The position numbers were made by a program, and so were the translations under genes. From contig JBBELK010000376.1 in assembly GCA_037783545.1 (NCBI GenBank), positions 930,001-994,000 on the forward strand: a stretch of 64,000 nt of DNA, read 5' to 3'. A model generated the notes under the pieces. It had not been told where the DNA came from and did no database searches. It saw only the letters and a list, made by a program, of their open reading frames with translations. The DNA is from Henricia sp. BOLD:AAB3569 (taxonomy: Eukaryota > Echinodermata > Asteroidea > Spinulosida > Echinasteridae). Positions 2,806-64,000 of this stretch are shown here, in pieces. Every line of letters starts with the position of its first letter. The stretch's first letter is position 1.

Positions 2806-3545
2806 GACCTATGACATAATGACGTCACGCAGTGTTTATCGCTAGTTTACACAATGCATAGTTCCGAGATTGCCCAGTTAACCCCGCCCCTTAGATATTG
2901 TTGCTATGTGCTCACAAGCCATCGCAAAAAAATGGCGACACTACGTACAAAACAACGGGACTCGGCATGGAAAGCACAGATTGATTGGAGAAAACTCGAA
3001 GGTATTTATGTTTTAGGGTCGACAGTTACCGTAGCACACACTGAGCGAAGGGCTAGTATTGCAGGAATGACATGTTTTTATAAAAATGCGCTTTCCTACC
3101 TTTGAACAGCGAATCGCCCGACATTGAAACCAAAATTCACCCGGTCACTGGCGCATACAACATACAAACTGTATGGGCAGAAATTCGCGTAAACGGTGTG
3201 ATGATTGCATCACTTTGACCTATGTGGGCGCCGTCTGCTAGCTCTGTTGTGATTGGTCGGCGGGTTCGGCTTGATTGACAGGTCGGAACTATGCATTATT
3301 GCAGGGCCATTATCTCCGCCTTTTGGGGCCTTAACAGTTAAAACCATAGTTCCGGCGTTCGTCGTGCACTGGGCTTAACTCGCGCAGGCACAACTAAGTT
3401 GACACGAACCATTTTAGAAAATTGCGATCTTTGTTTTTGACGAGGTTTTTTTTGGCAGCGAACTAGAGATACAGAGATTTCGTCCCCACTTTTCACCCAT
3501 AATGCACCGCGGTAAACATTGCGTGACGTCATTACGTTTTAGGTC
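2806..3545. mobile_element. TA-flanked MITE with about 40-bp arms around TGACGTCA
   Basis: The left end (GACCTATGACATAATGACGT...) pairs with the right end read in reverse (GACCTAAAACGTAATGACGT...). Both ends are flanked by TA, as in Tc1/mariner-type insertions. A second element (2856-3294) is inserted inside. The right arm ends 27 bp before the ATG of the secreted-protein gene, so it lies in that gene's promoter or 5' leader. The palindromic TGACGTCA in each arm is a CRE-like site; regulatory use is inference. Confidence 0.65.
2856..3294. mobile_element. Non-autonomous DNA element, 12-bp TIR GCATAGTTCCGA, copy 1
   Basis: The ends are GCATAGTTCCGA and its reverse complement, flanked by AT on both sides. 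A second copy of almost equal length lies in opposite orientation at 49948-50387. Similarity runs over the full length, including TGGCGAC...ACGTAC and the GATTGGTCGGCGGGTTCGGC region. An 83-codon open stretch in this copy is not kept open in copy 2, so it is not treated as a gene. Confidence 0.8.
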
Positions 3546-3572: not shown

Positions 3573-4293
3573 ATGGCAATTTTCAGGACCGCAGTGTTTG
3601 TCTTCCTGGTAGCTGGCTTCATTGGTGCCCAGACGGATGATACATTGAACAGCGTCGTTAGACGGGTGCTCGATGAGCTTCGTCAGATTGGCAGGTATAG
3701 GCATTAAGACTTCGTTCTAATTCCGCTAAAGTATGTTTAATTGCATTGATGCATTACTTATTTACATGTGCGATTTTTACGGGGTTTGCAGAGCCGTGGG
3801 AAGCCATGACATCGTGTTAAATTTCTATTATTGTCCTTTTCAGACGGAACTAGCTTACAGGTACTTGGCCAGACTCGAAGACGTGGCGATGGATAAGTCG
3901 ACGGGCGAGCTCGAAATCGACCGGGCCATCTTCATCGATGTCTCCACCGGCAAGCCCATAACTCGACCGGACATCACCTACGGCCTCCAACTCGCTGGAC
4001 TAGAAATGGCCGTCATCGCTACTGCCTTCAAGGGCAACCGCTTCGAATCCATGGAAGCAAAGGGGCTGATGGCCGAAGGGGTCCCGTACACGTTTGTTGG
4101 AATTGAACATGGAGTGGCCAACGCAATGCAGAAGGACCTAAACGGGGCTCTGACCATGATGAAGACGGCTATAGGAGTTATCGTTGCTCATTCGCCTAAA
4201 GGAGCCATGGACATTGCCATTCACGCGGTCCGAGCCATTCACGACGAGATTGCACAAGAAGCGGCTACGCCGAAACGTTCATGGGCTCAATAG
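3573..4293 (+). CDS. Small secreted protein, two exons, family not recognised
   Basis: Exon 1 is 3573-3694. It encodes MAIFRTAVFVFLVAGFIGAQ, a clear signal peptide with a hydrophobic core and a likely cleavage site after GA or AQ. The intron is 3695-3860 (GTATAG...CTTACAG), phase 2. Exon 2 is 3861-4293 and stops with TAG. A nearer AG at 3843 would bring in an immediate stop, which decides the acceptor. The product is about 184 residues. The mature part has no transmembrane segment and no cysteine pattern. It contains alternating short helical-looking stretches (YLARLEDVAMDKSTGEL, GLEMAVIATAFKG, IGVIVAHSPKGAMDIAIHAV). The codon pattern is GC-richer than the surroundings, as expected for a real exon. 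No family is recognised; a secreted or lumenal helical protein is the most that can be said. An AATAAA at 4689 could serve as its poly(A) signal. Confidence 0.75.
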
Positions 4294-4750: not shown

Positions 4751-4877
4751 TTAAAGGCAATGCGCGCGCGCCAAAATTGTGCCACGAAATACGCAGCTCC
4801 ATGCCTTTGCTACGGAGCTGCGTATTTCGTGGCACGAATTTGGCACGCGCGCATTGCTGACGAGCCTGTGCCTTTAA
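4751..4877. mobile_element. Fold-back MITE (TTAAAGGCACAG family), copy 1
   Basis: Nearly perfect palindrome. The arms read CGTGCCACGAAATACGCAGC inward and the mirror image outward, with a loop near 4800. The left arm lacks about 17 bp next to its end. Further full copies are at 46055-46195 and 59437-59573, and half copies at 41706-41766 and 52561-52626. The ends carry TTAA. Confidence 0.85.
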
Positions 4878-28600: not shown

Positions 28601-28641
28601 CACCTGTGTGTAACACTCTAACTTCACCAATTATTTTCCAG

Positions 28642-29305
28642 GTCACCAGGTGCCGGCAGCTCATCCAGGTCACCAGATGCCGTCAGTTTGTCCAGGTCAC
28701 CTGTTGCCGGCAGCTCGTCCAGGTCACCAGGTGCCGGCGGCTCATCCAGGTCACCTGGTGCCGGCATAGCTCATCCATGTCACCAGGTGCCGGCAGCTCA
28801 TCCAGGTCACCATGCAGGTGCCGGCAGCTCATCCAGGTCACCAGGTGGCGGCAGCTCATCAGGGTCACCAGGTGCCGGCAGCTTGTCCAGGTCACCAGGT
28901 GCCAGCAGCTCGTCCAGGTCACCAGGTGCCGGCAGTTCATCCAGGTCACCAGGTGCCGGCAGGTCACCAGGTGCCGGCAGGTCACCAGGTGCCGGCAGCT
29001 CATTTAGGTCACCAGGTGCCGGCAGCTCATCCAGGTCACCAGGTGCCGGCAGTTCATCCAGGTCACCAGGTGCCAGCAGCTCATCCAGGTCACCAGGTGC
29101 CGGCTGTTCATCCAGGTTACCATGTGCCGGTAGTTCATCCATGTCACCAGGTGCCGGCAGTTCATCCAGGTCACCATGTGCCGGCAGCTCACCCAGGTCA
29201 CCAGGTGTCGACAGTTTCTCCAGGTGCCGGCAGTTCCTCCAGGTCACCATGTGCCGGCAGCTCATCCAGGTCACCAGGTGCCGGCAGCTCAGTTCAACTG
29301 CCAGC
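28642..29305 (+). repeat. 27-bp minisatellite, about 25 units, in the exon before the kinase
   Basis: Unit GTCACCAGGTGCCGGCAGC plus TCATCCAG. I count 25 units; two are cut to 18 bp, and three (29, 31 and 19 bp) change the frame. Depending on frame it encodes VTRCRQLIQ, SPGAGSSSR or HQVPAAHPG, and on the minus strand ELPAPGDLD, so long open frames arise on both strands. The last units are in frame with the kinase. Confidence 0.9.
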
Positions 29306-30155
29306 TAAACCCACATCAGCTACAAGATGCACAATTCTGTGTAGCGCAGTTAAACATGAGCTTGCCGACACTGGCCCTGGATATGTTGCTGCCAACGCTC
29401 CATTCCACAATGCCCAACCTCGCCCTGGACAACCTGGAAACACCGACGTCTGGCGAGGTCCTCTTGTGGAGTGGGGCGTATGGCACGGTCAAGCTGCTGC
29501 TGCTACGAGCAGGAAAAGTCCCAGTGGCGGTAAAAACCGTTAGTTCGGTAAATCGGGAATTGATGCTCCGGGAAGCACGGGATACGTCCGTGCTTTTCGG
29601 ACATCAGTCATTGCCGACATTATTTGGTGTATTAGTTGACGGGGAGGAGCGGTGTATTGTGATAAAGTATTTATATGATGTGTCCACGGGGGAGTCACTG
29701 ACCCCGTCGCCTTGCTCTGAAGCCCTTCCGTCTGGTCTAGCATTGCGCTGGACATGGTGGAGGGGCTCAAATACATGCACGACAGAGGTCTCCTGCATAA
29801 CGACTTCAAGACGGATAACGTTCTTGTTCGTTATGCAGGAGGCCGATGGACTGTATGTATCATCGACGTGGGCTCGTGTACCCTGGCCAATTATCTTAGG
29901 AAACGCAAGCTCAATGATCAGGAGAAGCAGCCATATCGCCAATTCAACGCGCATATTGCCCCCGAGCTAGTCGAAGACGGAGCACCCGAGACTCAGCTAA
30001 GTGACGTTTTCCAGTTGGGACTGGTGCTCTGGTTCATCGGCCAGAACAAGGGCGTGCCGGAATTGGTGATATTTGGGGACTGGTGCGGGAAGAGGGACCC
30101 GCAGGCCCGGCCCCCAACCGCTGTGCTTCGTTTAATGATGTCAAACCTGATATGA
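29306..30155 (+). pseudogene. Protein kinase domain with one frame shift
   Basis: The frame from about 29236 to 29700 gives a glycine loop (WSGAYGTVKLL), the beta-3 lysine (VAVKTV), a helix C glutamate (MLREARD) and a hinge (CIVIKYLYD). A second frame, shifted by one net base somewhere in about 29700-29745, gives the catalytic loop LLHNDFKTDNVLV (HND in place of HRD, with Asp, Lys and Asn present). It continues with IIDVGS in place of DFG, APEL, and SDVFQLGLVLWFIGQN, ending at 30155. All catalytic residues are visible, so the domain was functional recently. The shift could be a real lesion, a sequencing error or a very short intron. Closest to the divergent single-domain kinases common in marine invertebrates; no subfamily assigned. 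Typed as pseudogene because of the shift. Confidence 0.75.
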
Positions 30156-41512: not shown

Positions 41513-41705
41513 GGGTCGCGGGGCCCGTTGCACGGGGTTTAGCTGGGGTGTCCCAAGCTATATTGTGTCCAAGGTTGTAGCTTGCGATGTGCGTTTCTTT
41601 GCATGTGGGTCATATGATTTCAGATAGTTGTGGGTTAGTTGTTTAGCATTCCTCAGCAAGTCTTTGGTCAAGCAGTGCATAGAGTTTCAGCTTCGATTTG
41701 CGCAA

Positions 41706-41766
41706 TTAAGGGCATAGACTCGACAGCAATGCGCGCGCGCCAAATTCGTGCCACGAAATACGCAGA
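41706..41766. mobile_element. Half copy of the TTAAAGGCACAG fold-back MITE
   Basis: One arm only, ending at the centre of symmetry (ATACGCAG). Confidence 0.75.
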
Positions 41767-45298: not shown

Positions 45299-46054
45299 TG
45301 ATTATATTCGATGGTGGCATGGGGACCAGACTAACTAAATTTGCGTATGACGCCCACGTATGACGTCGCGTTGTGATGACGCCACAACGCGACGAGGAAC
45401 TTTCCGGGCGTTCGAGATGCTTACACCGTCTAACACGGGGTTTACACCAGCGGAAGCCTCCAGAAGATGCAAAACAAACGACAAGGGGTTTCGCTTTGAA
45501 TTCTGGGAACACAGGTCAAAGGTTGTTGCCAGGCAGGGCTAGTATAAACACTGTTGAATCGCGAGGAAAAATTAACCCGGCGCCGCGCAAAATGAGTTGT
45601 CCAAAAGGTACCGTAACAAACTTTGTCAATGCTCACAGGCCACAGACATCTCTACCGATAAAGCAAAATGTACATGTATATATATACATGCATGCACAAC
45701 CCTATTTCATCCTACTTTGTGTCACAAATCTTTGTTTTTCTTCGTACTCGCGTCGCGGCGATTCCAAACTGTCCACCATATTTTACTACTCGCAACTTCC
45801 ATACGGTTACTAGGTGACGTCATTACACCGAGCCTTACACCAGAAACCCGCCCGCGAGCTCAGGTAGTGGTGGCTGCTGCCACGGGGGCAGACACGTGTA
45901 TCACGTGATGGCTAAAAGAACGCCCCGGTGTAAGTTGGTTGAATGGTTTATTAACCTCTGCGACCCCAGCATGGGGTATGAGAGCCAGCTTAATTTACAT
46001 GACAGTTTATAAAGGTAAAAGAAGACAAATTAAACAAATTTGTAACTAAAAACA
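45299..46054. other. Unassigned stretch containing one arm of a 23-bp inverted repeat
   Basis: The only structure seen is 45406-45428, mirrored at 46700-46722 next to the DnaJ gene. A 146-codon frame here has no recognisable features. Confidence 0.4.
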
Positions 46055-46195
46055 TTAAAGGCACAGGCTCGTCAGCAATGCGCGCGCCAAATTCGTGCCA
46101 CGAACTACGCAGCTCCGTGTAGCAAAGGCATGGAGCTGCGTATTTCGTGGAACGAATTTGGCGCGCGCGCATTGCTGACGAGACTGTGCCTTTAA
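46055..46195. mobile_element. Fold-back MITE (TTAAAGGCACAG family), copy 2
   Basis: Full palindrome with arms of about 60 bp and TTAA-type ends. About 25 bp of host sequence (AGACAAATTAAACAAATT) is repeated on both sides, at 46022 and 46213, which is longer than a simple target duplication. Confidence 0.85.
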
Positions 46196-46371
46196 ATATA
46201 AAAGTAAAAAAAGACAAATTAAACAAATTACCGCAATGGATGAGTTAGGTTTAAACAAAGGCTTTAGTGGAACTAAATACAAATCACCTCGTAAAATTAA
46301 AATGAAAATAAATGTAGACATTGTGTTTACAGGATGGGAAATTAGACAATAATTATGTTCAACGGTGTAAG

Positions 46372-46799: not shown

Positions 46800-46898
46800 A
46801 TGGCGTTCCACATGCGAGGAAGAGCTCCTGCTAACGACACAAAGCTCTACGATCTTTTAGGAGTATCAAAAAATGCTACCGAGACCGAAATTAAAAAG
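46800..46898 (+). CDS. DNAJA2: DNAJA2-like exon 1
   Basis: 33 codons from the ATG in AAGATGG (good start context) to donor GTAAGA. Confidence 0.9.
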
Positions 46899-49800: not shown

Positions 49801-52800
49801 AAGAAAGGAAACAGAAATTAGCATTGGAAATAGCACGGCTGAGTGGTTGTGCTGAGACAGAATTAGTAAAGGTCAAACAAGTTGCTAAGAAACATGTCAA
49901 CAAGAGGATTGGGATAGAGAGGACAGTTATCAAGGAGTTGGGTGAATGCATAGTTCCGACCTGTCAATCAAGCCGAACCCGCGACCAATCACAACAGAGC
50001 TAGCAGACGGCGCCCACAAAGGTCAAAGTGATGCAATCATCACAAACAATCCGCGATGTTCTGCCCATACAGTTTGTATGTTGTATGCGCCAGTGACCAG
50101 GTTAATTTTGGTTTCAATGTTGGGCGATTCGCTGTTCAAAGGTAGGAAAGCGCATTTTTATGAAAGATATGTCATCCCTGCATTACTAGCCCTTCGCTCA
50201 GTGTGTGCTACGGTAACTGTCGACCTCAAAACATAAATACCTTTGGGTTTTCTCCAATGAATCTGTGCTTTCCATGCCGAGTCCCGTTGCTTTGTACGTA
50301 GTCTCGCCATTTTTTTGCGATGGCTTGTGAGCACATAGCAACAATATCCAAGGGGGCGGGGTTAACTGGGCAATCTCGGAACTATGCATTGCCAGAGTTT
50401 GTGGAGAAGAGGGTGGAACAGTTGTACTATGATAGGGCTGACAAGAGTGAAACATGGTGGGAAGGGAGAGTGTTAAGATGTGAAAACGAAGATTGCGAAG
50501 ACCCTTCAAAACAAATGTTCGTGATTGTGTATAGTGGTGATGAGAACGAGGATGAATATGTGCAAAACCTTTACTCTGACTACTTCAACGGGAGCTCAAT
50601 ATTCTGGATTAGGTAATAATTTGCATACTTACCCAAAATTTTATGGGCTCATCTTGTTCCTAATAGTCACATCAGGCATACTGCCAATTTTCATTGCAAA
50701 ATTTGGCCAAATGGCAGAGTTATTGCCGGAAGAGTATTTTGCTCGTTAAGGTAATTATGCTAATTAGGTGGTAATTTGCATATTTACCCGGAATTTGATG
50801 AGCTTGTCTTATTACTCACATTGAGATCATGCTTGTTGCCAACTTTCATAGCAATATTTGGCCAGTTAACCAAGTTATCTTGAAATCTGTGTCTTATTCA
50901 GTAAAGAAATGGCTTCACCAATAACCACTTGACCTTTGACCTTTCTGTACATTTTACTTTAAATGGATTTCTACAAACATTGCCCGTTTTCATAACTTCA
51001 AAATTCAATATCTCCGGAACGGGTACAGATATTTTAATTCTGTAAACTGCTCTGTGATGCTTGCTTCAAGACCTTTCATATGAGACTAATATCAATGCAA
51101 TGGTGTCATTATTTTTAATTTGGTCTGAGATGCCTACTAATAAAGTGCCGCACATCGGACAGTGCAAGCATCAGTGGTCACACTCACTGTCAGCACATTG
51201 GCAAAATGCCACAAAGTAATCATTGTGTGGCGTCCAAGTTAGAATGTTTTGATAATGGCACAATGGAAAGCAAAACTTTTTTATTAAAATCGTGAATTAA
51301 GTTGCACTGATCATGAAGGGGATTTTCCCCCCAGAGAAAAAACATTGATTTTCCCCCCTGGATCAATGATCTGATCACCATAAGCCGTTTCACGGATACC
51401 GCCATCTTGTAAAATTTTCACAAACACATGGGGGCAAACACTAGATGAAGGTCCCGGATGTGTACGTAAAACCTATGGGATTCGCACGCGCGGCGATAAC
51501 AAATTCGTTCTTTTTTCCTCTTCTGTATTTATTCTTTCGAAAAAAAAGCATGAAATACACAATAGAAGTACTATTAGAGTGATGTCAGTGTTTTATTTTT
51601 TCCATATTTCAGGTAGAAAGCAGCAGTGGGAGCAGGAGGCAAATTATTGTCCAACGCCGGCGGCATCATGCCATGTGCAGGAGTTGTGAAAGAACTGCAA
51701 ACTTTTTTTCTCAAATGAGAAATATAAGGGAAAAATCGGAGAGAATTCCGTACTCGTATACGTCACTATTTTCTCCCAAAAATTACTTCTAAAACATGTC
51801 AAAGAGTGCAAATTTAATGGAAAAAAAAATTTGTAGAGGAAAAATACGACGTTTTACTAGGAAAAATTTCTTGAGTTGTCTGCCCACTTCACTTGTCCTA
51901 CTTTCCCCCCAATACTTGACAAGGAATAAAATAATATAGGGGTTTGCAATTTAAAGAAAAAAGTGTCAAAACAACCATCTTGTAAATAGTTATTGATGCT
52001 TTGATCCACAAAAGTGTGTCCGGCCTTGATCTGCCACAGCGATGGTGAATATGGCAGCCTCGAGGGATTTGTGTTGTCGCTACAACTACACTTAAAACAA
52101 ACGGCTCTTTTCAGAGCTAACACAACCCCATGCCCCGATAAAGATATTAAAAAGAAAGCAGCTTACCCCAAACTTCTCTTCATGTGTGTTGTGTGAACAA
52201 TTTTTGCAACAATGTCGCACAGAATGAATGATACACAGCGTGGGTAGCAAATTGGGGAAAAAATTCACAATTTCTATTTTGAGATAAAACCACTTTCACA
52301 CCACAGACAAGTTGCAACAGATTTCAAAAATACTTTTGTTGCGAAAAATTATCAAGCGGTTGATGCTTATGCTTGTTAAAATGCGTCCAATTTATCGTCA
52401 ATGAAAAGGAATAGACAGCAACATCAAAAATTGTGATGTGATGCCAAGCGCCCTGTTTGGCACGAAGCACATTATATTTTCTTGGTTAGTCTTAAATTCA
52501 AGCGTTATATATTTATCTTGTCCTTCAAGAGCAGACTAAACAGGGCGCCATTAACTGACATTAAGGGCTAAGGCTTGTCAATGCGTGCGTGAGGCCAAAT
52601 TCGTGCCAAGAAATATGCAGCTTCATACATGTAGTTAGATGTACTCGGACTAAAACCTTCTATAATATAGGCCCTAATTGGTTTTCGTTTTTGTTTCTGG
52701 TGGTTGCTGACGGCTCTTGACATTTCCTGAAGATGATAAGTGCGGCCAGAAAATCTTCAATTATTCTCACAAACTCACTCCTAAATTTGGGTTTTCTTTT

Positions 52801-55800
52801 AAATATAAAATTAAATATTTTCTCAGAAATCACTTGGGAATATTTCAGCCATGATCAACCACTCTCAATTATTTCCGTTTATGCACCTATCAATTTTTAA
52901 CACCACCCCCACCTACCGGTAGTCAGTGAGCTTTCCTTTCATAAAGTGGATTGTTGTCATTTTGCCTCGAAATTAGAATCACACCCAAAAATTTTCTCCT
53001 ACAGTGTAGTTGTGTCCTGCAGTGGTTTTAGATGTCCATGATTGGAAAATGATTGGAAAGAAATATTTACAACACCGTTTTTGAAGCCAAAATGTTGTCA
53101 TTTCCTCAGTGCGTACAGCACTAGCGGCACGGAAAGGACTGCGTACTTGTAAATGAATTTGTGCCCGATTAACGATAAGGCTTGATATTGGGCAGGCCCA
53201 ACAGTAATTTATTTTCACGTAGGAAAGCGCCTTCTCGCGAGATTTCACGTCGAGACATATTATCACGGCACCGACAGAACCAGCCGTTCAATTTGTACGT
53301 TGGACAACATTTTGGCTTAAAAAACGGTGTTGTAAGTATTTCTTTCCAATCATTTTCCAATCATGGACATCTAAAACCACTACAGGACACAACTAGGAGG
53401 AAATTTTTGGGTGTGATTCTAATTTCGAGGCAAAATGACAACAATCCACTTTATGAAAGGGGTACCTTCTGTCCCTACAGGAAATCCCGTAGGGACAGAA
53501 TCATTCCGTCTACCCCCCACCCTCTTCAAATGCACTGCACCACCCCTTCGTTGGGATTTGGTAAGGATTTTCATGCCCAAGGGTGGGGATTTTGACGCAT
53601 AGGAATCAAATTTTCAGTGCCCCCAGGAGCAAAACATGCATGTTCTGCACAAGTGGGTGGGGATTTTTGTCACCTAAATTTTGTCCCAGGGGTGGGGATT
53701 TTATTCTTGTATATCTGCCCCAAAAGCAACCCTCGTGTTAGTGGCAAGCTACCGGTACAATGTATAGGGCATATAAGTCTGTTTTCAATACTGGAGAGAC
53801 TTTTTTACCAGGGTCATAACTCTATGCAATGCCAGATATCTTCTCTCAAAACAAAAGAAATATCTTAAGACAGATCTAAGAAGATAACCTAAGCAACAAA
53901 TAGTGCAACAACATACCTTTCTGAAAACACTGTGTACAAATTTCCTATTTAACGTATGTAACATACCGGTAGGCAGGGCTTGCCCTTAATTTTTTCTGAG
54001 AGTAGCCCACTGGGCTAGTAAATTGTGTTTTTAACTAGCCCGCAGAAATTTTTACTAGCCCATGAAATGTTTGAAAAAACAAAGCATTAAAATATTGACT
54101 AGCACTGTCTACTGAGAAAGTTGATTTTTGTTCATCCCCGCCATGGCTAGAAATCACTAGCTGCGTTCTCTCGCTTGTTTGATGATGGATTTGGATTTTT
54201 AACGGTGGACATGTACCACCACATGTTGCAGCCCGGTAGTCAAAATTCTCTCCAACACGTTTAAATTCTCTCCAACACTGCACTGTCGATGTCACAACAC
54301 ACAGCGATCCTCCTGAAAATACGCACTGACCATGCGGTGTGCTATTCGGTATTTTTTTCCCACTGTGCAAAATAACTGGCCTTTATTTGCACTAGGGTAT
54401 GTAGGAAAAAAATCCGACGCAGCATCGGTTTTTGGTATCTGGTTCCCAGTACGAATTGTATGTCAATTACATTGGTCACTTATAAAGGTTACTAAATACT
54501 GGTGAAACTATCGTTGATACAGTACCGCAGTAGGTAGAACACGTCAATACGTACGGTGCATACGACTAGTCGTAGTCGTAGCGATGCTGGGGGATTTCAC
54601 ATGGCTTTGCAATAAAATAAAGTTACATTCATGACAGTGACACACAAAAGGTAAAGCTTTGAAGAGTTCGTTTTATTTTCAGTAATCACATCTGGAAAAC
54701 AAGGAACGTGCACATGTTTTAAGTAGCCCGCCGGGCAAGTTGAAAAGTGGATTTTACTTGCCCACAGCAGTTTTTACTAGACAATGTACGCCGGGCTAGC
54801 GTTAAGGTCGAGCCCTGGGTAGGACACATACTTTGTGACATTTTTTGGTGTCCTTGTTACATACATGTACGGTATATTGGAAATTTGCACACAGGGCTTT
54901 CAGGAAGGTATGTTGTGGCACTATTCGTTGCAGTTCTATAGCTGAAGTTATCCCCTCAGATCTATCTTAAGATATTTCTTTTGTTTTGAGAGAAGATGAA
55001 TGACATTGTACAGAGATATAATCCTGGAGGAAAAAGTCTTTCCAGTATTGAAAACAGACACATATACATAACGGTGATTTCAACTTTGAGGCAGTACATT
55101 TTGTATAAATTTGTTAACTATTGTGTATTTTACTTACAGGCATATCGCAAGATGGCGAAAGAATATCACCCGGACAAGAACCCCAATGCTGGAGAAAAGG
55201 TAACTCTTTATGCTTGTAATTCAGTCAGCCCTTGCATTGACAAATTGTGGCTTGTAAAATTGTAAAGCCTTGTGTTTGTTAACAGTATGCTACACTCTTT
55301 TCACATTGGTTTGCACGCCTGGTTTCGTCCACTGCTCAGCTTCGCAATGTATCCTGTAAAGCGCGCGCGTGTGCCGTCACCAAAAGCCAAGGTTGGATAA
55401 CACTTGACATGATTGGACAGATTCTGTCACCTGATGCAGTAAACATGTCAAAGTGTGACATTTTGATGTAGTGTATACAATATTTAAGACAACGTACAGT
55501 TGTCTTGGTATCATACATGTATTCAATGAAATCCTTTATGACACGAGAGACACCAAGGCATTTTACAAGACCCATGACATGTATGATACATTTTTTCCAG
55601 CGGTGTACAGGGGAAATCGTTCACTGGGGTGAATTACAGGATGTTTTTATTGAATAGGCAGTTCTTTTCGTTGGGTAAACATTTTTGAAAATGTTCACAT
55701 ATCGAATATTCGATCAAAAAAATAATTGAATTGAGTAATCGGGCCGATATGCACGTGCGTAGAAAGAACCCTGCCGTAAGCCGCCGCGCGCCGTCGCGAT

Positions 55801-58800
55801 ACGTTAGTCTGGTCAGTTTTCCATTTTCGTTTTTTCATTTCTCACTAACATTTACAAAACTAATCTGGAAGTGCAAGAATAAGGACAAAATGTTGGAAAA
55901 AATGTGTCGCAAATTGCATCGCTAAATTAAGTCAAAAACTGCGATGCACTTTGAAAAGTGGCATAGCAGATTGTCAAAAACGCGTCGCATTTTGTGATGC
56001 GATACAGGGGAAATCGTTCACTGGGGTGAATTACAGGATGTTTTTATTGAATAGTCAGTTCTTTTCGTTGGGTAAACATTTTTGAAAATGTTCACATACA
56101 TCGAATATTCGATCAAAAAAATTAATTGAATTTCGAATAGTCAATTTTTCGAAAAAGCACAGGCCTATTTTTTTTCACTAGTTCCTTTAAAAAAATGGTA
56201 TGTAAAGTTCCTGCACTTATATAATTAACAAAATGTCACTAAATACTTTGTATTTTTTAAAATTTCACGTACATGTACATCATTGTACATGTAGGAGATT
56301 TCGCTTGTTTATCAAGTCTTTTTCGTCATTTTGTGGATAATATCAACTCTTAAAGGTGTTCTTCAGTTCACAAAGACCATACATGTATGCTGAGGGTAAT
56401 CGTTATGTGGAACGCAGTATTTATAAAGAAAAAAAAATCAAATCCAGGATTTTTTGCGTTGTTAGGGTGGGGGCTTTAACACGTTGACTGCCGACTACGA
56501 GTATACATGTACTCGTAGTTAACAGGTGTACCGGATTCTGCCACTACGAGTATACTCGTAGAAGATGGCAACGCTCTCTGTGGGAATGCCCTATGAAACT
56601 ATGCTCGGCTGTCAACATGTTAAAGGAGTACTGTCATTAAAGACAAAGATGGCTTTAAAACAACCCCAAGTAGTGACTTGTTAGTGTACTGATTTTCATT
56701 TGGCATGTTTCCACATGGTTTATGAGTAATAAGCCTGTGCATATACGAGTATTAAAAGATTCGGATACCCCTTAATCGTAACGGTCGGGTACCCGGATAC
56801 CCTCAAAATCAAGGCAAACATCTTAAATTTCAAACCCGGAAGTAATGAGGTGTTTTTTTACAAGCGGCGGCCAAACCGCCACGCGTTTATGTATGTATGC
56901 CAATAGTTGGCCTATTTTCGATGTAGTCAAAGAAGTGTTCTATTAAAGTTTGTTTTGTAAAAAGAAAAATGAGTAACTTGGACATAAAAATACCTTGGTT
57001 TTGGGTATATGTATTATCATCGTATTTGTACATAATAAAACAAATCTGGAAAGAATTGAAGACATCGATGACGAAGTCGCGAAGTCCGGAAGCCATCAAC
57101 ATACTCACCGCACCAGTTTCAAACTTTCTCCGACGGCGACCGCATGGATGGATGCAGCATATACGACCGGCTCTGCATTGCATGCACGGACGCATGTACA
57201 TATGTGTACACGCAGACAGTACAGAGCCAATGCATGCACAAACACAAGGTAAGTGAAAGCACGTGTACAAATTGTACAGTGCTTTCGCCTGGGCCCGACG
57301 CATGCGCTTTGTACAATAATAACCGGCCGAGTCGTTCCATTACGCGCATCTCGATTGGCCAAACAATGCACGGGCCACGTGGTAAAATTTAGATTGCCTT
57401 TTTTTGGGTCGTTCGGTTTTGATCTTACCAGGCAGCCAAAATACATCAAAGGTTTAATGTAATGCATTCATCGTACATTGCGTTTGTCATGCATTCGGCC
57501 CCATATGACGATTTAATTAAATTAATTAAGTAAAGGACATGGAACAGAACACTAGACATGACATTGACTGTATGGACGAACTTCGACGGTTAACGTGACA
57601 AAACAGAATTTTATTTTTATTTATTGTACTCAGAAATGAAGACTTTATAATCAGTTAATTTATTAACACAACAAAATCCAATATTCCAATTATATCCGAT
57701 AATAAAGAAAAAATAAGCTGAACCAAAATCAGTGAGAAATATTAGCAGCAAGAGCTAATAGTATTACTCATAAAATTACTTAATTCAAGAAATTTAGTTC
57801 AATTCATTTAGTTCAATGGGAAGGGGCCTTTGGGGTTTCTACTTTCTAACGGTTCAACTTGGAGTTTTGCGATAGAAAAACCAACATGTTAACGTTCTCT
57901 GCTGTCAAACAACTCCGCTTCGCTGAAACAATGTTTCCGGCTGTTGAAAACACCCGCTCTGACGGAACCGAGGTGGCGGGAACGCAAAGTAACCTCCTTG
58001 CAAACCCGGCCACAGACGGAAATCGGTCGCCGTTGGCTCGCCACCACTGGCATGGGTCTGTGTTCAAACTGACTGGTTTTGCTCGGAGGTACTCTGCGAA
58101 CTCTTCCACCATCGATGTCTCCCCGTCTTCGCTGGTGTCTTCATCCTCGAGTGTTCCCTGGGCTCCACCTAGTAGAAAGGCCATCGCGGATGTTTCTGCC
58201 GTGTCAAGTCGCTGACGCTTTTTGGGAGGTTCCTCATCCTGACCCTGTACCATCATGTCAAGAACTCGGTCCTTGGCAGCCTGCCGCTGTTCCTTGGAAA
58301 GGAAGTTGTGGTCCTTGTAGCGCGGGTCCACTACCGACGAGAGCAGCGGAACGTCAAGGGCGTCGACGCAAAACCTGTTTCAATTTTCAAAGGCAAAGAA
58401 AGGAACCCAATTAAGAACCCAATTGTATTCTTCAAGAAAAACTTTTAAACAAAATAATATACACCCTTGCCGGTTGAGCCTCCATTCACTAAGTCTATGG
58501 AGCATGATATCAAGTGTTTTCAAAGGAAAACTTTAAATTTTCTTACTGGTTAATTCATGTTTCCTAACCACTTTCTGGGGTGTTATCAATATCATGTCAT
58601 ATTACGAAGAATTAGTTGCGAGGGTGTATAGTATTTATTTATACCAAGCTTTTGATTCATTATTTTTAATCATTAATAAATAATTGTAAACCTTTAACCT
58701 AGATCGCATGCACTTTAAAATGCGTGAATTTTATGCTGCAATTTTTGGGGTGGCTTGTTGGAGCGGGAGGAAAAAATTCATACATCACACACCACTGCCG

Positions 58801-61800
58801 CCTTTGTAGTGTGGCCGATATGCTCGGCGCGCGGCGATAGTATGATACCCTCTGTGTGCTTTCACAAAAACCGACAACCAATAAAAACGCTATTCACTTA
58901 GTGCCCGCAATAATCCCTCCAATCATTTGCCTTTCATTTTGTGCTTGTTGTCACTCACGGACTGGGCTTTATGGCTGCTTTGATGTGACGTCTTTAAAGG
59001 AAGTTGCATTTTTAAAAACTAGCTTACCTTTTGGCCAAGTCGTTGCGGATTGCCGTCTTCAGTGTCTGGATGGCGGCCGAGTCGTCCTGCGTGGTGCGCA
59101 GATGGCCGTGCAGCCCGTTTACGATCGGGTACACGCAACTCCCGCTCACGTTGGTCTCATACGACAGGCATGTCGTGGCTACCTGCGAAATAATTAAATA
59201 AGAGGTATAAATATTATACAATGGTTCAAATTGATAAGAGCTACACTTCAAAGAATATTGCATAAAAATCACTGACTTGGAATTTTTTTCTTCTCACTGC
59301 TAAATTCATGTTTCCTCACCATTTTATATTTACACTTGTGCTGATCATAACAAATAAACAAAAGCAGTAACTTTTTTTTATTTTTATTCAAGACCATTAT
59401 AAAATTAGCACGGCCCAATTTTAGTCAAAATATGAATTAAAGGCACAGACTCGTCAGCAATGCGCGCGCCAAATCCGTGCCACAAAATACGCAGCTCCAT
59501 GCTTTGCTACACGGAGCTGCGTATTTCGTAGCACGAATTTGGCGTGCTCATTGCTGACGATCCTGTGCCTTAACCTTCCTACATGTACAGATGTACCTGC
59601 AGTGGTTTCAGACATGTTACTAGTTCGTCTACCAGGGCCCATTGAGCGTTCGTAAGTTCCAGAGTCTTGGCTTCCGATAGCTTTGTTATGTTGTGGTCAC
59701 TCAAAACCGCGCAAAGAGGCCAGCGCTGCTCTTTGGCTATCTTGAGCATCTCGTAGGTCGAATTCCACCTCGTCTTCACAGATTGTACCAGTCGGGCTTT
59801 GGTGGCAAGCGTGCTTCGTCTAAAGTGTCCTACCAGGCGGCTTACGGCTGCAATTGCTGTAGAAATCGGCCGAGATGCATCGAAGCCTTTGTTTATAGAT
59901 AGTTGCAACTTGTGCGCAGCACAGCCGACATCAGAAGTAGGGTTGCGTTGGCCTACATCCTTAACATTGGCCGCGTTATCGTGCACCACCGCCACGACTT
60001 TTCCTACGAGCTCCCAGTCGCTGATGACACGGCCTAGCTGGGCTGCGAGCGCTTCTGCGGTGTGTCGTTGTGGTGCTGCCTCGGCAGTGTCGCCATCGTC
60101 AGTCGGTGCCACTACCGGTGAGGTGTCCAGTACGGCGGACTTGCAGGACCAGTATTCATCGATAAAATGGACAGTCACCGTCATAAAACCTTCCTGGCTG
60201 CGCGAAGTCCAGCAATCCGTCGTTAATGCAACTTGCTGGCATCCGCCCAGCCTTGACTTGAGCTCACCTTTCTTGACTTCAAACATATTGTGGATGCGAG
60301 CCGTTACCGCTTTCCGGCTAGGTACCGTGTAACCCGGTTCCAAGAAGGCGAGGAATTGACGTAGACCATGTCCTTCGACGACCGAAATCGGAAGCGAATC
60401 TATCGCCACCATTTCTGCCAGCAATTGGCACATTTTCTCCGCCTTTGCTGGGCTGCATTCTTGGCGACCGAAAAATCCAGAAATCGTTGTCTGCTGGCGG
60501 CTTAGACTTCTCTTTTCCCCGGCCTTGTCGGATGTAGGATGCTTTCCCACAAGGTGTTTTAGCATGGAGCTGGTTGACCCGCCCGCGAAGGACAATTCTA
60601 CGTTGCATATTGTACACTTGACGGTTTTCGGACTAACTTTCTCGAAATGCGACCAAACTTGGCTTCCGGAACGTGGCATGATGTACGATCAGTAGCAAGG
60701 TTTGAGACAGAATGAGAGAGACTGAGACACCAAGAAATAATCACACACGAATGCACACCAAATCAACTGGGCAAAAGCTTGAAGCTTCTTTTAATTGTAT
60801 CACATTGTATCATACAAGTTCTTTGTGTCATTTGTTTGAGCCGCCATCCGCGGTACATCAGAGAAAGCCAGAAACCGATTCCAGGAACAAGGGGCTTTTT
60901 TCCCCAAGACAAACAACCATTAACACAATACTCTTGTATTATCAATGGGCAGTGAATGAGTGACTGAAAACCGCAAGTGTGTCCAAAATCGTCGGGAAAT
61001 TACCTCAAAGGAGATCGTGATGATGAATGACATGTGTCAGGAACGTCGGCATTTTTAGATAAAGTGGACACAAAAGATGACTCTATAAAGTCTTTTTATC
61101 TTCCTCCCAACATGGCTTTTCATTTCGTAAACATGACAAAATGATACCCCAACAATTTGTTCATGCCCTATTTTGTCGGAAAAAGGTTGTGGGGAATTTT
61201 AGAAAGTGGAATACGATTACCCGAACCGGAAAAGGAGAACCGGTTCTTAACATCGGCGGTCGGATACCCGGATACTCGGGTATCCGGCACTGGCTTAATG
61301 AGTAAAACCAGGAAAAGGGGGCAAAATTACCCCGTTTTGTTGTGAATGGGCCGCGCCATGTTTTTATTCAAGCCCTGTTTTCGCGCTCCAATACCCCGAA
61401 GGACATGACGTCACGCCGGCTGGGTTTGTATCGCTGGTACTTTGCACGGCCCTCTGACAGCGAAGCTTTTCCGGCCGAACGAACGTTGTGTCGTGTGTAC
61501 GTACCATGTTATCGACCACGGAATTTCCCAAACGAGCGCGGACGGCAAACAGCAGAAAAACGATGCAATTTCAGGACACAGAAAACATTGAAGGGTTCAT
61601 GTTCGAACCGGAGTTTACAGAAGAAGAACTACAAAATATCAAAACGCATGTTGACAAAACCAACGCCGAAGAAGAGCGAGACGGGAAAATTGCAGCGCGG
61701 CGTGCGCGCGTGGGTATGGTACCCTGTAGCTAGCTGTATGCAGCTAGCTAGCTAGCTAGATCAGGCAGCCGCGCTGACGTCGCGATGAAAAGCGCCCGCT

Positions 61801-63394
61801 AGCGGTAGATGGTGGAGAATGGCTGGCACAGAGGTTCGCTTTTAGTGTCATGGCGGCGCACAGAAGTCATTTTTATTTCAATTTTTAAAAAGATATATTC
61901 GTCATATGACAGAAATGTCCATGTTATCATATAAAACAAACTCTAATGTACAAAATGAGACAATTTTATCATCTTCTGACACTACTCCTTTAAGGGTTGA
62001 CTTAAAAGGACCAATGTTTTATAGTACATGTACCTGTACCTTTGAACCCGTTTCTTTAAAAACAATATTTTCTATGGAATAAGTGTTTTGTTTTGTGATA
62101 TAATGCTTTTTTACTCTGTCTTGATTTTTAGTTCAAGGAGATTGGATTTGCATATGAGGTGCTGAGTAATCCTGACAAACGAGACACCTACGACCGCTAT
62201 GGACTGGATGGCCTCAAAGAAGGCGACGGAGGAGGTAAATGAAAATCAAAATAAGGGTGAAATGAGAAAATGTGAACCGAGTCGAGAAAATGTGAACCGA
62301 GTCGAGAAAATACATGTATGAACTGAGTATTGAAAATATGAAACAAGTTATGAAAATATGAAACAAGTTATGAAAATATGAAACAAGTTATGAAAATATG
62401 AAACAAGTTATGAAAATATGAAACAAGTTATGAAAATATGAAACAAGTTATGAAAATATGAAACAAGTTATGAAAATATGAAACAAGTTATGAAAATATG
62501 AAACAAGTTATGAAAATATGAAACAAGTTATGAAAATATGAAACAAGTTATGAAAATACGAACTGAGTGACAAAATTACAGACCGAGTCATTGAATTATG
62601 AACAGAGTCAGGAAAACTGGACCGAGTTATGAATTTTCGAGTCATGGAAACATGAACTGACTCTTGAAAGTATGAACCAAGTTATCAAAATATGAGCTGA
62701 GTGAGAAAATTACGGACTGAGTCATGAATTACTGAGTCATGAAAAATGAACTGAGTCATTAAAATAAATGTATGAGCACAGTCATGAAAGTCAAGGCGAG
62801 TCTTGTATTTTCATGACTCCATTATTATTACAATGTATCACTATAAAATGATGCTTACATGTAGTTTCTTTATTTTTGTAAGATTTACAGAACTTTTTTT
62901 CGTTTGCTTTGAAAGACTTAAGTTTACTTCGAGTTTACAATCGCATGCGCTTTTGTTACTGTTGTACCGGTACAGTATTTTTTTTATACCATATTCGCAC
63001 GTGTGTGGCATGCACCTGCATGGCATGTACCGTATATATATGCATTGTATTTATATGATACATGTACAGTACCGTACAATGTACATCTAGGTCGGCGTCA
63101 TTCAAAGACTTCACACGTGTGTGTGTGTGAATGCATGTATTTTGGGTGAGCCCAGTTTGAATGCCCATCAGAATAGAGCTCTGTTTTGCACAGTATCAGG
63201 AATGGTTCATTTTATATGATACAAGTTTCATTTTTATATATGATGTCAAATATCAACTTTCCACATTTTGCAGGTTTTGATGACATCTTTTCCCATTTCT
63301 TTGGCGGCGGTCTGTTTGGCGGCGGCGGCGGCGGCTTTGGCGGCGGTCGAAGACCGCGGAAGATGAAAGGCGAAGATACTGTGCATCGTCTGGG
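46800..63394 (+). CDS. DNAJA2: Type A DnaJ/Hsp40 co-chaperone, DNAJA2-like, 5' four exons
   Basis: Exons: 46800-46898, 55140-55199, 62132-62234 and 63274-63394, all with GT..AG borders; phases 0, 0, 1 and 2 at the ends. The joined order is a J domain: [20 protein letters not shown] (helices I and II start), [20 protein letters not shown] with the HPD motif that stimulates Hsp70 ATPase, then [20 protein letters not shown] and [12 protein letters not shown] Gly/Phe-rich linker follows ([20 protein letters not shown]), then [16 protein letters not shown], which in type A proteins leads into substrate-binding domain I. The zinc-finger region, second barrel and C-terminus lie beyond the window. 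The longer N-terminus before the J domain and the RRPRK.KGEDTVH stretch favour DNAJA2 over DNAJA1. The product is a cytosolic Hsp70 partner. Introns of 8.2, 6.9 and 1.0 kb are filled with repeats. Confidence 0.92.
46899..47770. other. Start of DNAJA2-like intron 1
   Basis: No gene. About 47640-47760 carries three spaced TAAGCCGC / TAAACCGC motifs (AATAAGCCGC, GTAAGCCGC, ATAAACCGC), which looks like an old repeat. Confidence 0.4.
47771..48625. mobile_element. Long-arm DNA element A, 9-bp target duplication
   Basis: 855 bp. Arms of about 190 bp are mirrored: CATTTTGCCTCGAAATTAGA near 47813 and its reverse complement near 48528. The outer ends are TAGTCAG and, in reverse, TAGACAG. Flanked by the perfect 9-bp duplication AAAAAATGC (47762-47770 and 48626-48634). 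The right end carries an extra perfect hairpin TTCTGTCCCTACGGG/CCCGTAGGGACAGAA. No transposase frame. Confidence 0.9.
48735..48789 (+). promoter_or_regulatory. Possible 5' non-coding exon of the nested gene
   Basis: An AAG|GTAAGT donor at 48790 and a TTTATTGTATTTCAG acceptor at about 49376 would join this stretch to the coding region starting at 49419. The transcription start is not defined. Confidence 0.35.
49419..50616 (+). CDS. Unrecognised gene in DNAJA2-like intron 1, coding sequence split by a MITE
   Basis: The frame 49419-49946 (ATG start) is lysine/glutamate-rich. It has a charged helical middle ([19 protein letters not shown]) that could form a coiled coil. The MITE 49948-50387 interrupts it. 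Coding resumes in frame at 50390, counting one copy of the AT target dinucleotide, with [20 protein letters not shown]. It ends with WWEGRVLRC...[10 protein letters not shown]...[15 protein letters not shown] and a stop at 50616. The last part resembles the small Tudor/chromo-like barrel signature (W.G.V....F.V.Y.GD) seen in many transposon-linked invertebrate proteins; that is weak inference. Without the MITE the product would be about 250 residues. With it, the frame runs into MITE sequence and stops at 50003. Function unknown. Confidence 0.6.
49948..50387. mobile_element. Non-autonomous DNA element GCATAGTTCCGA, copy 2 (reverse orientation)
   Basis: 440 bp, same TIR and interior as 2856-3294 but inverted, with AT on both sides. 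It lies inside a coding sequence whose frame is restored exactly when the element and one AT are ignored. This supports both the borders and the 2-bp duplication. Confidence 0.85.
50617..52560. other. Intron 1 sequence, no feature recognised
   Basis: AT-rich. Two similar stretches (TAATTTGCATA-TTACCC near 50620 and 50773) suggest an old local duplication. No gene. Confidence 0.4.
52561..52626. mobile_element. Half copy of the TTAAAGGCACAG fold-back MITE
   Basis: One diverged arm: GCCAAATTCGTGCCAAGAAA, ending at ATGCAG. Confidence 0.65.
52920..53512. mobile_element. Long-arm DNA element B (same family as element A)
   Basis: 593 bp. Arms of about 170 bp are shared with element A (GTCAGTGAGCTTTCC at left, GGGACAGAATCATTC at right, and the same subterminal hairpin GTCCCTAC.GG...CCCGTAGGGAC). 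The interior is different and shorter. The target duplication is unclear because both flanks are C-rich. Confidence 0.85.
53839..54996. mobile_element. Element with about 140-bp inverted repeats, containing an hAT-like MITE
   Basis: TCTTCTCTCAAAACAAAAGA at the left and its mirror at the right, extending through AAGAAATATCTTAAGA and CAACATACCTT.CTGAAA. The whole centre is taken by the element at 53974-54817. Confidence 0.8.
53974..54817. mobile_element. hAT-like MITE CAGGGCTTGCCCTTAA
   Basis: Ends CAGGGCTTGCCCTTAA and, in reverse, CAGGGCTCGACCTTAA. The arms contain repeated ACTAGCCC/GGGCTAGT words. GGTAGG is found on both sides (6 of the 8 bp expected for hAT). Confidence 0.75.
55140..55199 (+). 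CDS. DNAJA2: DNAJA2-like exon 2
   Basis: 20 codons, [20 protein letters not shown], containing the HPD motif; acceptor TTACTTACAG, donor GTAACT. Confidence 0.92.
55604..56150 (+). repeat. Direct repeat of about 140 bp (55604-55735 and 55998-56150)
   Basis: Both copies start with ACAGGGGAAATCGTTCACTG and run through TTTTCGTTGGGTAAACATTT and TCGAATATTCGATCAAAAAA. The spacer has several GTCGCA/TGCGAT words. Confidence 0.85.
56480..56619. mobile_element. 140-bp piggyBac-like MITE
   Basis: TTAA on both sides, ends CACGTTGACTGCCG and, in reverse, CATGTTGACAGCCG. The interior has two CTACGAGTATAC..CTCGTAG palindromes. Confidence 0.8.
57846..60679 (-). CDS. hAT transposase (ZBED-type), three exons, apparently uninterrupted
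   Basis: Minus strand: exon 1 60679-59597, exon 2 59182-59028, exon 3 58374-57846. Borders are GT..AG and phases 0 and 2 agree. About 588 residues, normal for ZBED/hAT proteins. The N-terminal BED zinc finger ([19 protein letters not shown] ... MLKHLVGKH) binds DNA. The RNase H-like core follows, with LTTDCWTS (first Asp) and [12 protein letters not shown] (second Asp). The C-terminal hATC dimer region has [23 protein letters not shown] (Glu) and NMLVFLSQN. The splice joins LKPLQ to [11 protein letters not shown] and AKR to FCVDALDVP without a stop. Intron 1 contains MITE 59437-59573. The intact frame inside bounded TIRs argues for a potentially functional transposase rather than a domesticated host gene. 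Confidence 0.9.
59437..59573. mobile_element. Fold-back MITE (TTAAAGGCACAG family), copy 3
   Basis: Full palindrome with ends TTAAAGGCACAG and CTGTGCCTTAA. Inserted in the first intron of the hAT transposase, so it is younger than the hAT copy or travelled with it. Confidence 0.85.
61488..61733 (+). CDS. Possible first exon of an unknown protein
   Basis: From the ATG at 61506 ([18 protein letters not shown]) the frame passes through an acidic stretch [20 protein letters not shown] and [20 protein letters not shown], then a stop. The acidic F/Y-EP-E-TEEEL motif resembles the N-terminus of invertebrate proteins annotated as P2X7-like, which are often transposon-linked. This is recalled similarity, not proof. 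A donor may lie at the GTGGGTATGG just after RARV. It lies within the TTAA-flanked element, beside the hAT right end. Confidence 0.4.
   Translation: MSCVRTMLSTTEFPKRARTANSRKTMQFQDTENIEGFMFEPEFTEEELQNIKTHVDKTNAEEERDGKIAARRARVGMVPCS
62132..62234 (+). CDS. DNAJA2: DNAJA2-like exon 3
   Basis: Ends of the J domain, [20 protein letters not shown] and the following [13 protein letters not shown]; acceptor GATTTTTAG, donor GTAAAT. Confidence 0.9.
62240..62815 (+). repeat. Minisatellite in DNAJA2-like intron 3, 20-bp core
   Basis: About eleven virtually identical copies of ATGAAAATATGAAACAAGTT (62330-62560), bordered on both sides by diverged units of the type ATGAA.TGAGTCATGAAAAT. The homogeneous core points to recent expansion. 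Confidence 0.95.
63274..63394 (+). CDS. DNAJA2: DNAJA2-like exon 4
   Basis: Gly/Phe-rich linker with GGC runs and then [12 protein letters not shown]; acceptor CATTTTGCAG, donor GTGAGT. Phase 2 end fits continuation with the VSLEDLY-type sequence of type A DnaJ proteins. Confidence 0.88.
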
Positions 63395-63797
63395 GTGAGT
63401 GGGCACATTGTACAATGGACACCATGTACATACATGTACACTGCCAAAAGTTACTATTTTCGGTGATATTTTCGGTAATATTTTAGTTAATATTGCAAAT
63501 TGTGTATACTAGAAATGTACCCTTAAGCCATTTGAAATTGATTATGCAAGGTACATTTACATTAACTGGTTTTCTTCGTGGTCTCCAAAATTCACTCAAC
63601 TCTAAAAATTTGTGAATCGGTATTTTGAACTTTAAAGGAGAAAATACACTTTGACAAATTCAAAGTCCCAAAATGTTATTTAATCATTTGACTGGAATAA
63701 CCTTTAATACTTGCATGTAAATAGAAGACAAAAGTGGTTCCAACTGTCCAATGTAATGAAAACTTGTTATCGGAAAACAATAATTAAAGATAAATAT
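63395..63797. other. Start of DNAJA2-like intron 4
   Basis: AT-rich, no feature recognised. Confidence 0.4.
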
Positions 63798-64000
63798 ATA
63801 TTTATTAATTTTGACAAGGGCACCTTCTTTAACGAAGTAATTATTGCGTCAGTCCATATGATGATACTGGTACATGGAAGTTATTCGCCCTCACGACGCG
63901 GTATGCACTATATACTAATTGCACTCCCAGAGGACACGCTAAAAACTCTGTGTGCTCAGGCGGGACTCGAACCCACGACCTCCTGCATACTAGGCAGACG
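63798..64000 (-). repeat. tRNA-derived SINE, cut by the window edge
   Basis: On the minus strand from 64000: an anticodon-arm-like CTGCCTAGTATGCAG, then GTGGGTTCGAGTCCCGC, in which the T stem pairs well, then a tRNA-unrelated tail (TCTGGGAGTGCAATTAG...) ending in AT-rich sequence. The 5' half of the tRNA part lies outside, so a true tRNA gene cannot be excluded. Confidence 0.6.

Follow-up and report, generated by a model that had tools for sequence, protein, structure and literature searches.

What is the 4.6-kb insertion that lies antisense to a DNAJA2 gene in the asteroid Henricia sp. BOLD:AAB3569, and could it still move? We analysed a window of 64,000 nucleotides (positions 930,001 to 994,000 of contig JBBELK010000376.1, assembly GCA_037783545.1), for which a preliminary description had proposed a complete, bounded and intact-looking autonomous hAT transposon within a DNAJA2 intron, with an 8-bp duplication, matching ends and a three-exon BED-finger transposase. 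The ends, the duplication, the open coding sequence (CDS) and the flanking exons all uphold that proposal: the element is structurally complete and is an ordinary kind of object. We interpret it, with a probability of roughly 0.87, as one copy of the hAT superfamily that was inserted by cut-and-paste into the intron and that is, in the tests possible, closest to Hermes of the Ac family. All positions refer to the window (Table 1).

The element occupies the minus strand, an orientation set by its transposase. The octamer ATGAGTAA is duplicated exactly on its two sides, and one further copy lies inside the element, at 56969. Directly inside the duplications, the tips TAAGCCTGTGC and TAAGCCAGTGC (reverse complement) agree at 10 of 11 bases. 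The 8-bp target-site duplication is of the hAT kind, and the short terminal inverted repeat (TIR) and the total size fall within the ranges given for the superfamily, which are 10–25 bp for TIRs and 2.5–5 kb for size (PMC3942097). The duplicated octamer also fits nTnnnnAn, the target pattern reported for Hermes (PMC2803484, PMC10368747), a fit at one site only that has a 1-in-16 chance of arising at random. CAGTG, just inside the gene-5′ tip, was considered as the true end and rejected, as no direct repeat was seen outside it by eye.

Boundaries of this sort can arise by coincidence, in which case the true element would be longer or shorter. Across 40 dinucleotide-shuffled versions of the whole window there were 7 cases of an 8-bp repeat spaced 1–6 kb apart with an inverted match of at least 10 of 11 bases, confined to 5 of those versions and amounting to about 0.18 per shuffled window, and the end-match score of the outer 60 bp of the element was equalled by 2 of 2,000 mononucleotide shuffles. 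In the real window, 38 pairs pass the same repeat and inverted-match criterion; the other 37 fall in the window's own repeat families, as judged by their coordinates against blastn repeats. Taken alone, the boundary is moderately unlikely by chance. It is firm because a hAT gene of fitting size is bracketed within it, as are independent tip motifs that lie just inside both ends, and we consider a coincidental boundary highly improbable.

The bracketed gene consists of three exons that join into 588 codons (588 amino acids) without an internal stop, their frame and splice phases agreeing and both introns having GT–AG borders; the junctions claimed in the preliminary description, 59597/59182 and 59028/58374, were recovered exactly at the level of sequence. 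Exon 1 has no stop in its own frame, whereas the two remaining frames of its strand contain 23 and 11, and GC content is 54% in the CDS compared with 36–37% in the introns. Pfam models place a zf-BED finger at residues 6–48 (E = 1.2e-8) and the dimerization domain Dimer_Tnp_hAT (PF05699) at residues 505–583 (E = 7.5e-22); a match to tRNA_bind_3 (Pfam, 0.063, under its cut-off) was taken as chance. A 35-nt direct repeat (86% identical) is present in both introns, at 58540–58574 and 59291–59325.

When compared with sequences of solved structures, the transposase gave four distinct matches at values of up to E = 1, the best being 7.7e-21 in two alignment stretches, and two of the four are named Hermes transposase. 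We take structure 2bw3 to be Hermes. Structure 4d1q is Hermes according to PMC10368747. Residues D155, D234 and E552, together with RW at 304–305, align with the catalytic residues and the RW motif of Hermes, in which the catalytic spacings are 68 and 392 (counted by eye in the alignments). The Hermes residues that face these three are presumably D180, D248 and E572. The transposase is apparently functional, as judged from these sequence features.

The tips of the element carry a second signal. The hexamer GGATAC, on either strand, occurs five times in the element, always at most 71 bp from a tip, and is absent from the intervening 4.4 kb; the 59 kb outside the element contain six. In 2,000 shuffles, five GGATAC motifs never fell together in the outermost 75 bp at the tips, and when any 6-mer was allowed to count, none reached five there in 500 shuffles. 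Read inward, the motifs at the gene-5′ tip run sense, antisense, antisense and those at the gene-3′ tip sense, sense; the first two gene-5′ motifs form a quasi-palindrome at bp 13–28 of what is the promoter end. The left end of Hermes is likewise its promoter end. The BED-binding subterminal repeats (STRs) of Hermes, AAG(T/C), run with STR1 sense and STR2–STR7 antisense at the left end, which has a quasi-palindrome within bp 11–27, and STR1–STR5 at the right end are all sense (PMC10368747). We regard the Hermes-like orientation of GGATAC as a lead only, because it was seen post hoc and rests on five motifs (1 in 16 if orientations were random). Among the matches listed in open-licence literature, judged by title and abstract opening, none had this repeat-orientation pattern outside the Hermes study, and a search of that literature with the tip letters gave no transposon paper, by title, among the matches listed.

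Hermes, which comes from Musca domestica, shares with the element a BED finger, a DDE core, a C-terminal dimerization region and an 8-bp target duplication of the pattern nTnnnnAn. In both, too, the ends are dissimilar and carry repeats near the tips, which form a palindromic pair at one end and all point the same way at the other (PMC10368747). The two differ in the repeat itself (AAG(T/C) versus GGATAC), in TIR length (17 versus 11 bp), in size (about 3 kb versus 4.6 kb) and in transposase length (612 versus 588 amino acids), and similarity between the transposase sequences is remote. The BuT2 and Tip group is comparable in its described features, which are a multi-exon transposase, a 12-bp TIR and an 8-bp target-site duplication (PMC3942097).

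By analogy with Hermes, we hypothesize that the transposase would assemble as a multimer, the BED fingers of which would grip GGATAC asymmetrically, through the palindromic pair at the promoter end and the same-sense repeats at the other. An RNase-H-like core would then excise the element, which would be joined to an 8-bp staggered target of the pattern nTnnnnAn. Because the insert lies antisense in an intron, splicing would remove it from DNAJA2.

The history of the copy can be approached through a palindromic miniature inverted-repeat transposable element (MITE), with TTAA at both ends, that is nested in transposase intron 1. Its relatives in the window include whole and half copies (46054–46196, 4757–4877, 41704–41765 and 52560–52626). 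Against a family consensus built from eight arms, two of them its own, the nested MITE has 8 substitutions in 124 positions (about 6%), one of them perhaps a boundary effect. The corresponding counts are 3 of 125 for the copy at 46054 and 4 of 106 for that at 4757; for the half copies they are 4 of 61 (41704) and 9 of 62 (52560). We simulated neutral decay of the transposase CDS, with indels at a rate of our choosing of 0.12 per substitution: at 1% divergence 5.8% of runs still had an intact CDS, at 2% this was 0.1%, and at 5% it was 0 of 2,000. When only stops and loss of the start were counted, the CDS remained open in 26% of runs at 2% divergence and in 4% at 5%. If the differences of the MITE arose inside the hAT element, the transposase has probably not been decaying neutrally over the same time. 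Likelier than neutral decay in place is that the MITE, probably gained in intron 1 by an ancestor of this copy, travelled with the element as it transposed, selection meanwhile maintaining the transposase; either that, or selection acts on the transposase at this site. The differences may also predate the insertion of the MITE into the hAT element. Among the matches listed in open-licence literature, by title and abstract opening, none dealt with a hAT transposase gene that has a MITE in one of its introns.

Selection at this site would make the transposase a ZBED-like host gene in the making, that is, an old, fixed copy with a reading frame kept by selection on the protein in place. In keeping with this, the frame is open although the MITE within the element has diverged by about 6% from the family consensus, and the hAT ends differ beyond 11 bp. 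Decay would be expected after domestication, yet the exact duplication, the matching tips and the five tip motifs persist; domesticated ZBED genes are generally without transposon ends and target duplication, whereas this transposase retains both. Metazoan ZBED genes do derive from hAT elements, and they have in common with this transposase a BED finger and the hAT dimerization region (PMC3606216, PMC10027918). Its catalytic residues are kept, yet domesticated ZBEDs keep them too (PMC3606216), so these do not separate the two, and on balance we find domestication improbable.

Several points weigh against reading the insertion as a Hermes-like hAT copy that arrived by cut-and-paste. One copy is seen in the 64-kb window, and beyond 11 bp its ends match weakly and with gaps. 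The ends of hAT elements start with YARNG, which the terminal TAAGC fits at four of five positions, departing at the fifth. The Pfam model of the hAT RNase-H fold has no match in the transposase at E = 0.1, and a single-sequence structure model of residues 1–361 has a predicted local distance difference test score (pLDDT) of 36.5, too low for use. The introns are predictions from GT–AG sites and frame agreement. The MITE argument rests on eight differences, on a consensus that contains the copy's own arms and on a chosen indel rate, and the half MITE copies differ from the consensus as much as the nested one or more. Finally, the gene-3′ end is without a palindromic motif pair.

This last point would also fit a bounded but immobile copy, compatible with hAT identity, in which the frame stayed open by luck or youth and the gene-3′ end has decayed past cutting; in Hermes, shifting the left-end repeats by 1 bp severely impairs cleavage (PMC10368747). 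The ends of Hermes are, however, dissimilar too, with right-end STR1–STR5 all running one way, as here (PMC10368747), and we consider loss of mobility possible, if unlikely. The open frame, catalytic residues, exact duplication and clustered tip motifs would favour the mobility or recent movement that the preliminary description raised as a possibility. The element is probably not pristine, and its nested MITE and the divergence of its ends beyond 11 bp count against a very young age.

We looked for other copies. The tip pattern, with one mismatch allowed, has 3 matches in the window versus 2.80 expected by chance: the two tips themselves and a third (56157–56167, minus strand) that was taken as chance. 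A motif-rich tip pattern found only the element's own two places. In a blastn comparison of 54500–64000 with the window (E = 0.01), the matches of the element to outside places were limited to the MITE and a single weak stretch, 56944–57020 (77 bp, 69%, E = 0.002). Neither the whole transposase nor its last domain picked up a relative in scans of viral contigs, and the whole transposase picked up none in genome contigs. The last domain alone gave one distant genome contig, SLAD01000126.1 (L001), from a Kiritimatiellae metagenome-assembled genome, which aligns at 49% identity along 61 residues in the dimerization region and at 27% in each of two longer stretches. Unlike this transposase, the hAT reading frame at 491–2429 of that contig is interrupted by an internal stop and shifts frame once. 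The contig is presumably a misbinned eukaryotic one.

The insertion is flanked by four DNAJA2-like exons on the plus strand, with splice sites that fit, and the element therefore lies antisense within intron 55200–62131. A 94-amino-acid peptide from the last three exons had DNAJA2 as its best match among 46 sequences (9.1e-24 over residues 1–53), with DNAJA1 at 6.6e-21; the query carried two surplus residues at the second junction, outside the matched residues. The Pfam DnaJ model matches two of the exons, in both cases slightly under the curated cut-off.

Table 1. Features of the hAT element and of the surrounding DNAJA2 gene, in window coordinates
Feature	Position	Strand	Basis
DNAJA2 exon, donor GTAAGA	46842–46898 (approximate)	+	Motif search for DnaJ start, no family model
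DNAJA2 exon	55140–55199	+	Pfam, protein match, splice sites
Target-site duplication, copy 1 (ATGAGTAA)	56722–56729		Exact match to 61298–61305; fits nTnnnnAn
hAT transposon, 4,568 bp	56730–61297	-	Ends, transposase, domains
TIR, gene-3′ tip (TAAGCCTGTGC)	56730–56740		10 of 11 bases versus other tip
Two GGATAC motifs, both sense, starting 34 and 66 bp from gene-3′ tip	56763–56800	+	Motif search
Three AATAAA polyadenylation-like signals 3′ of transposase stop	57610–57664	-	Sequence
Transposase exon 3 with stop; hAT dimerization domain, catalytic E552	57846–58374 (529 nt)	-	Frame, Pfam, Hermes alignment
Transposase intron 2 (predicted), 653 bp, GT–AG	58375–59027	-	Splice sites
Transposase exon 2	59028–59182 (155 nt)	-	Frame
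Transposase intron 1 (predicted), 414 bp, GT–AG	59183–59596	-	Splice sites
Palindromic MITE, TTAA at both ends, nested in intron 1	59437–59573		blastn, consensus of arms
Transposase exon 1 with ATG; BED finger, D155, D234	59597–60679 (1,083 nt)	-	Frame, Pfam, Hermes alignment
Three GGATAC motifs, starting 13 (sense), 23 and 31 (antisense) bp from gene-5′ tip	61262–61285	-	Motif search
TIR, gene-5′ tip (TAAGCCAGTGC read inward)	61287–61297		10 of 11 bases versus other tip
Target-site duplication, copy 2	61298–61305		Exact match to copy 1
DNAJA2 exon	62132–62234	+	Pfam, protein match, splice sites
DNAJA2 exon, 3′ limit approximate	63274–63390	+	Splice fit; no Pfam match of its own

Other features lie close by. 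Just left of the hAT element, a small TTAA-bounded element with ends CACGTTGACTGCC and GGCTGTCAACATG was identified by eye at 56476–56623; to us it is reminiscent of piggyBac-type MITEs. On the other side, an open reading frame (ORF) at 61506–61730 on the plus strand starts some 200 bp beyond the hAT element in the same DNAJA2 intron. A second gene starting there was rejected, as this ORF had no Pfam support at E = 10 and the longer ORF none at E = 0.1; it may resemble P2X7-like intracellular-domain proteins of invertebrates, a likeness for which Pfam gave no confirmation. The next DNAJA2 intron holds a 20-bp minisatellite (62331–62562; 11.6 copies, 99% matching). Elsewhere in the window, 5412–25729 is an array of long direct duplications with units of about 2.7–3.1 kb (from coordinates) that are mostly 94–98% identical, and a 27-bp tandem array of 24 copies (28637–29291) is followed, after about 430 bp, by a protein-kinase-like ORF (29721–30152; Pkinase, 5.8e-13). 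A duplicate of about 450 bp occurs in inverted orientation at 2852–3297 and 49945–50391 (94% identical, 47 kb apart), and the ORF at 3730–4290 (plus strand) has a weak profilin match (3.1e-05), slightly under the Pfam cut-off.

The locus may bear on the hAT superfamily more widely. A speculative extension, and a doubtful one as a whole, is that the asymmetric subterminal-repeat code of Hermes would be general to BED-type hATs despite a complete change of motif, and that the present family would be live and would carry a passenger MITE in its transposase intron. By this code we mean that the promoter end has a palindromic pair just inside its TIR along with further antisense repeats, and that the opposite end carries repeats which all run in the same sense. 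The hAT superfamily is large and widespread, so this copy is itself ordinary. As a test case, the element predicts a BED target, GGATAC, that is unlike that of Hermes and is set in the same end geometry, and it could be used to probe whether an asymmetric transpososome is common to hATs. If mobile, it would be another candidate hAT for gene delivery.

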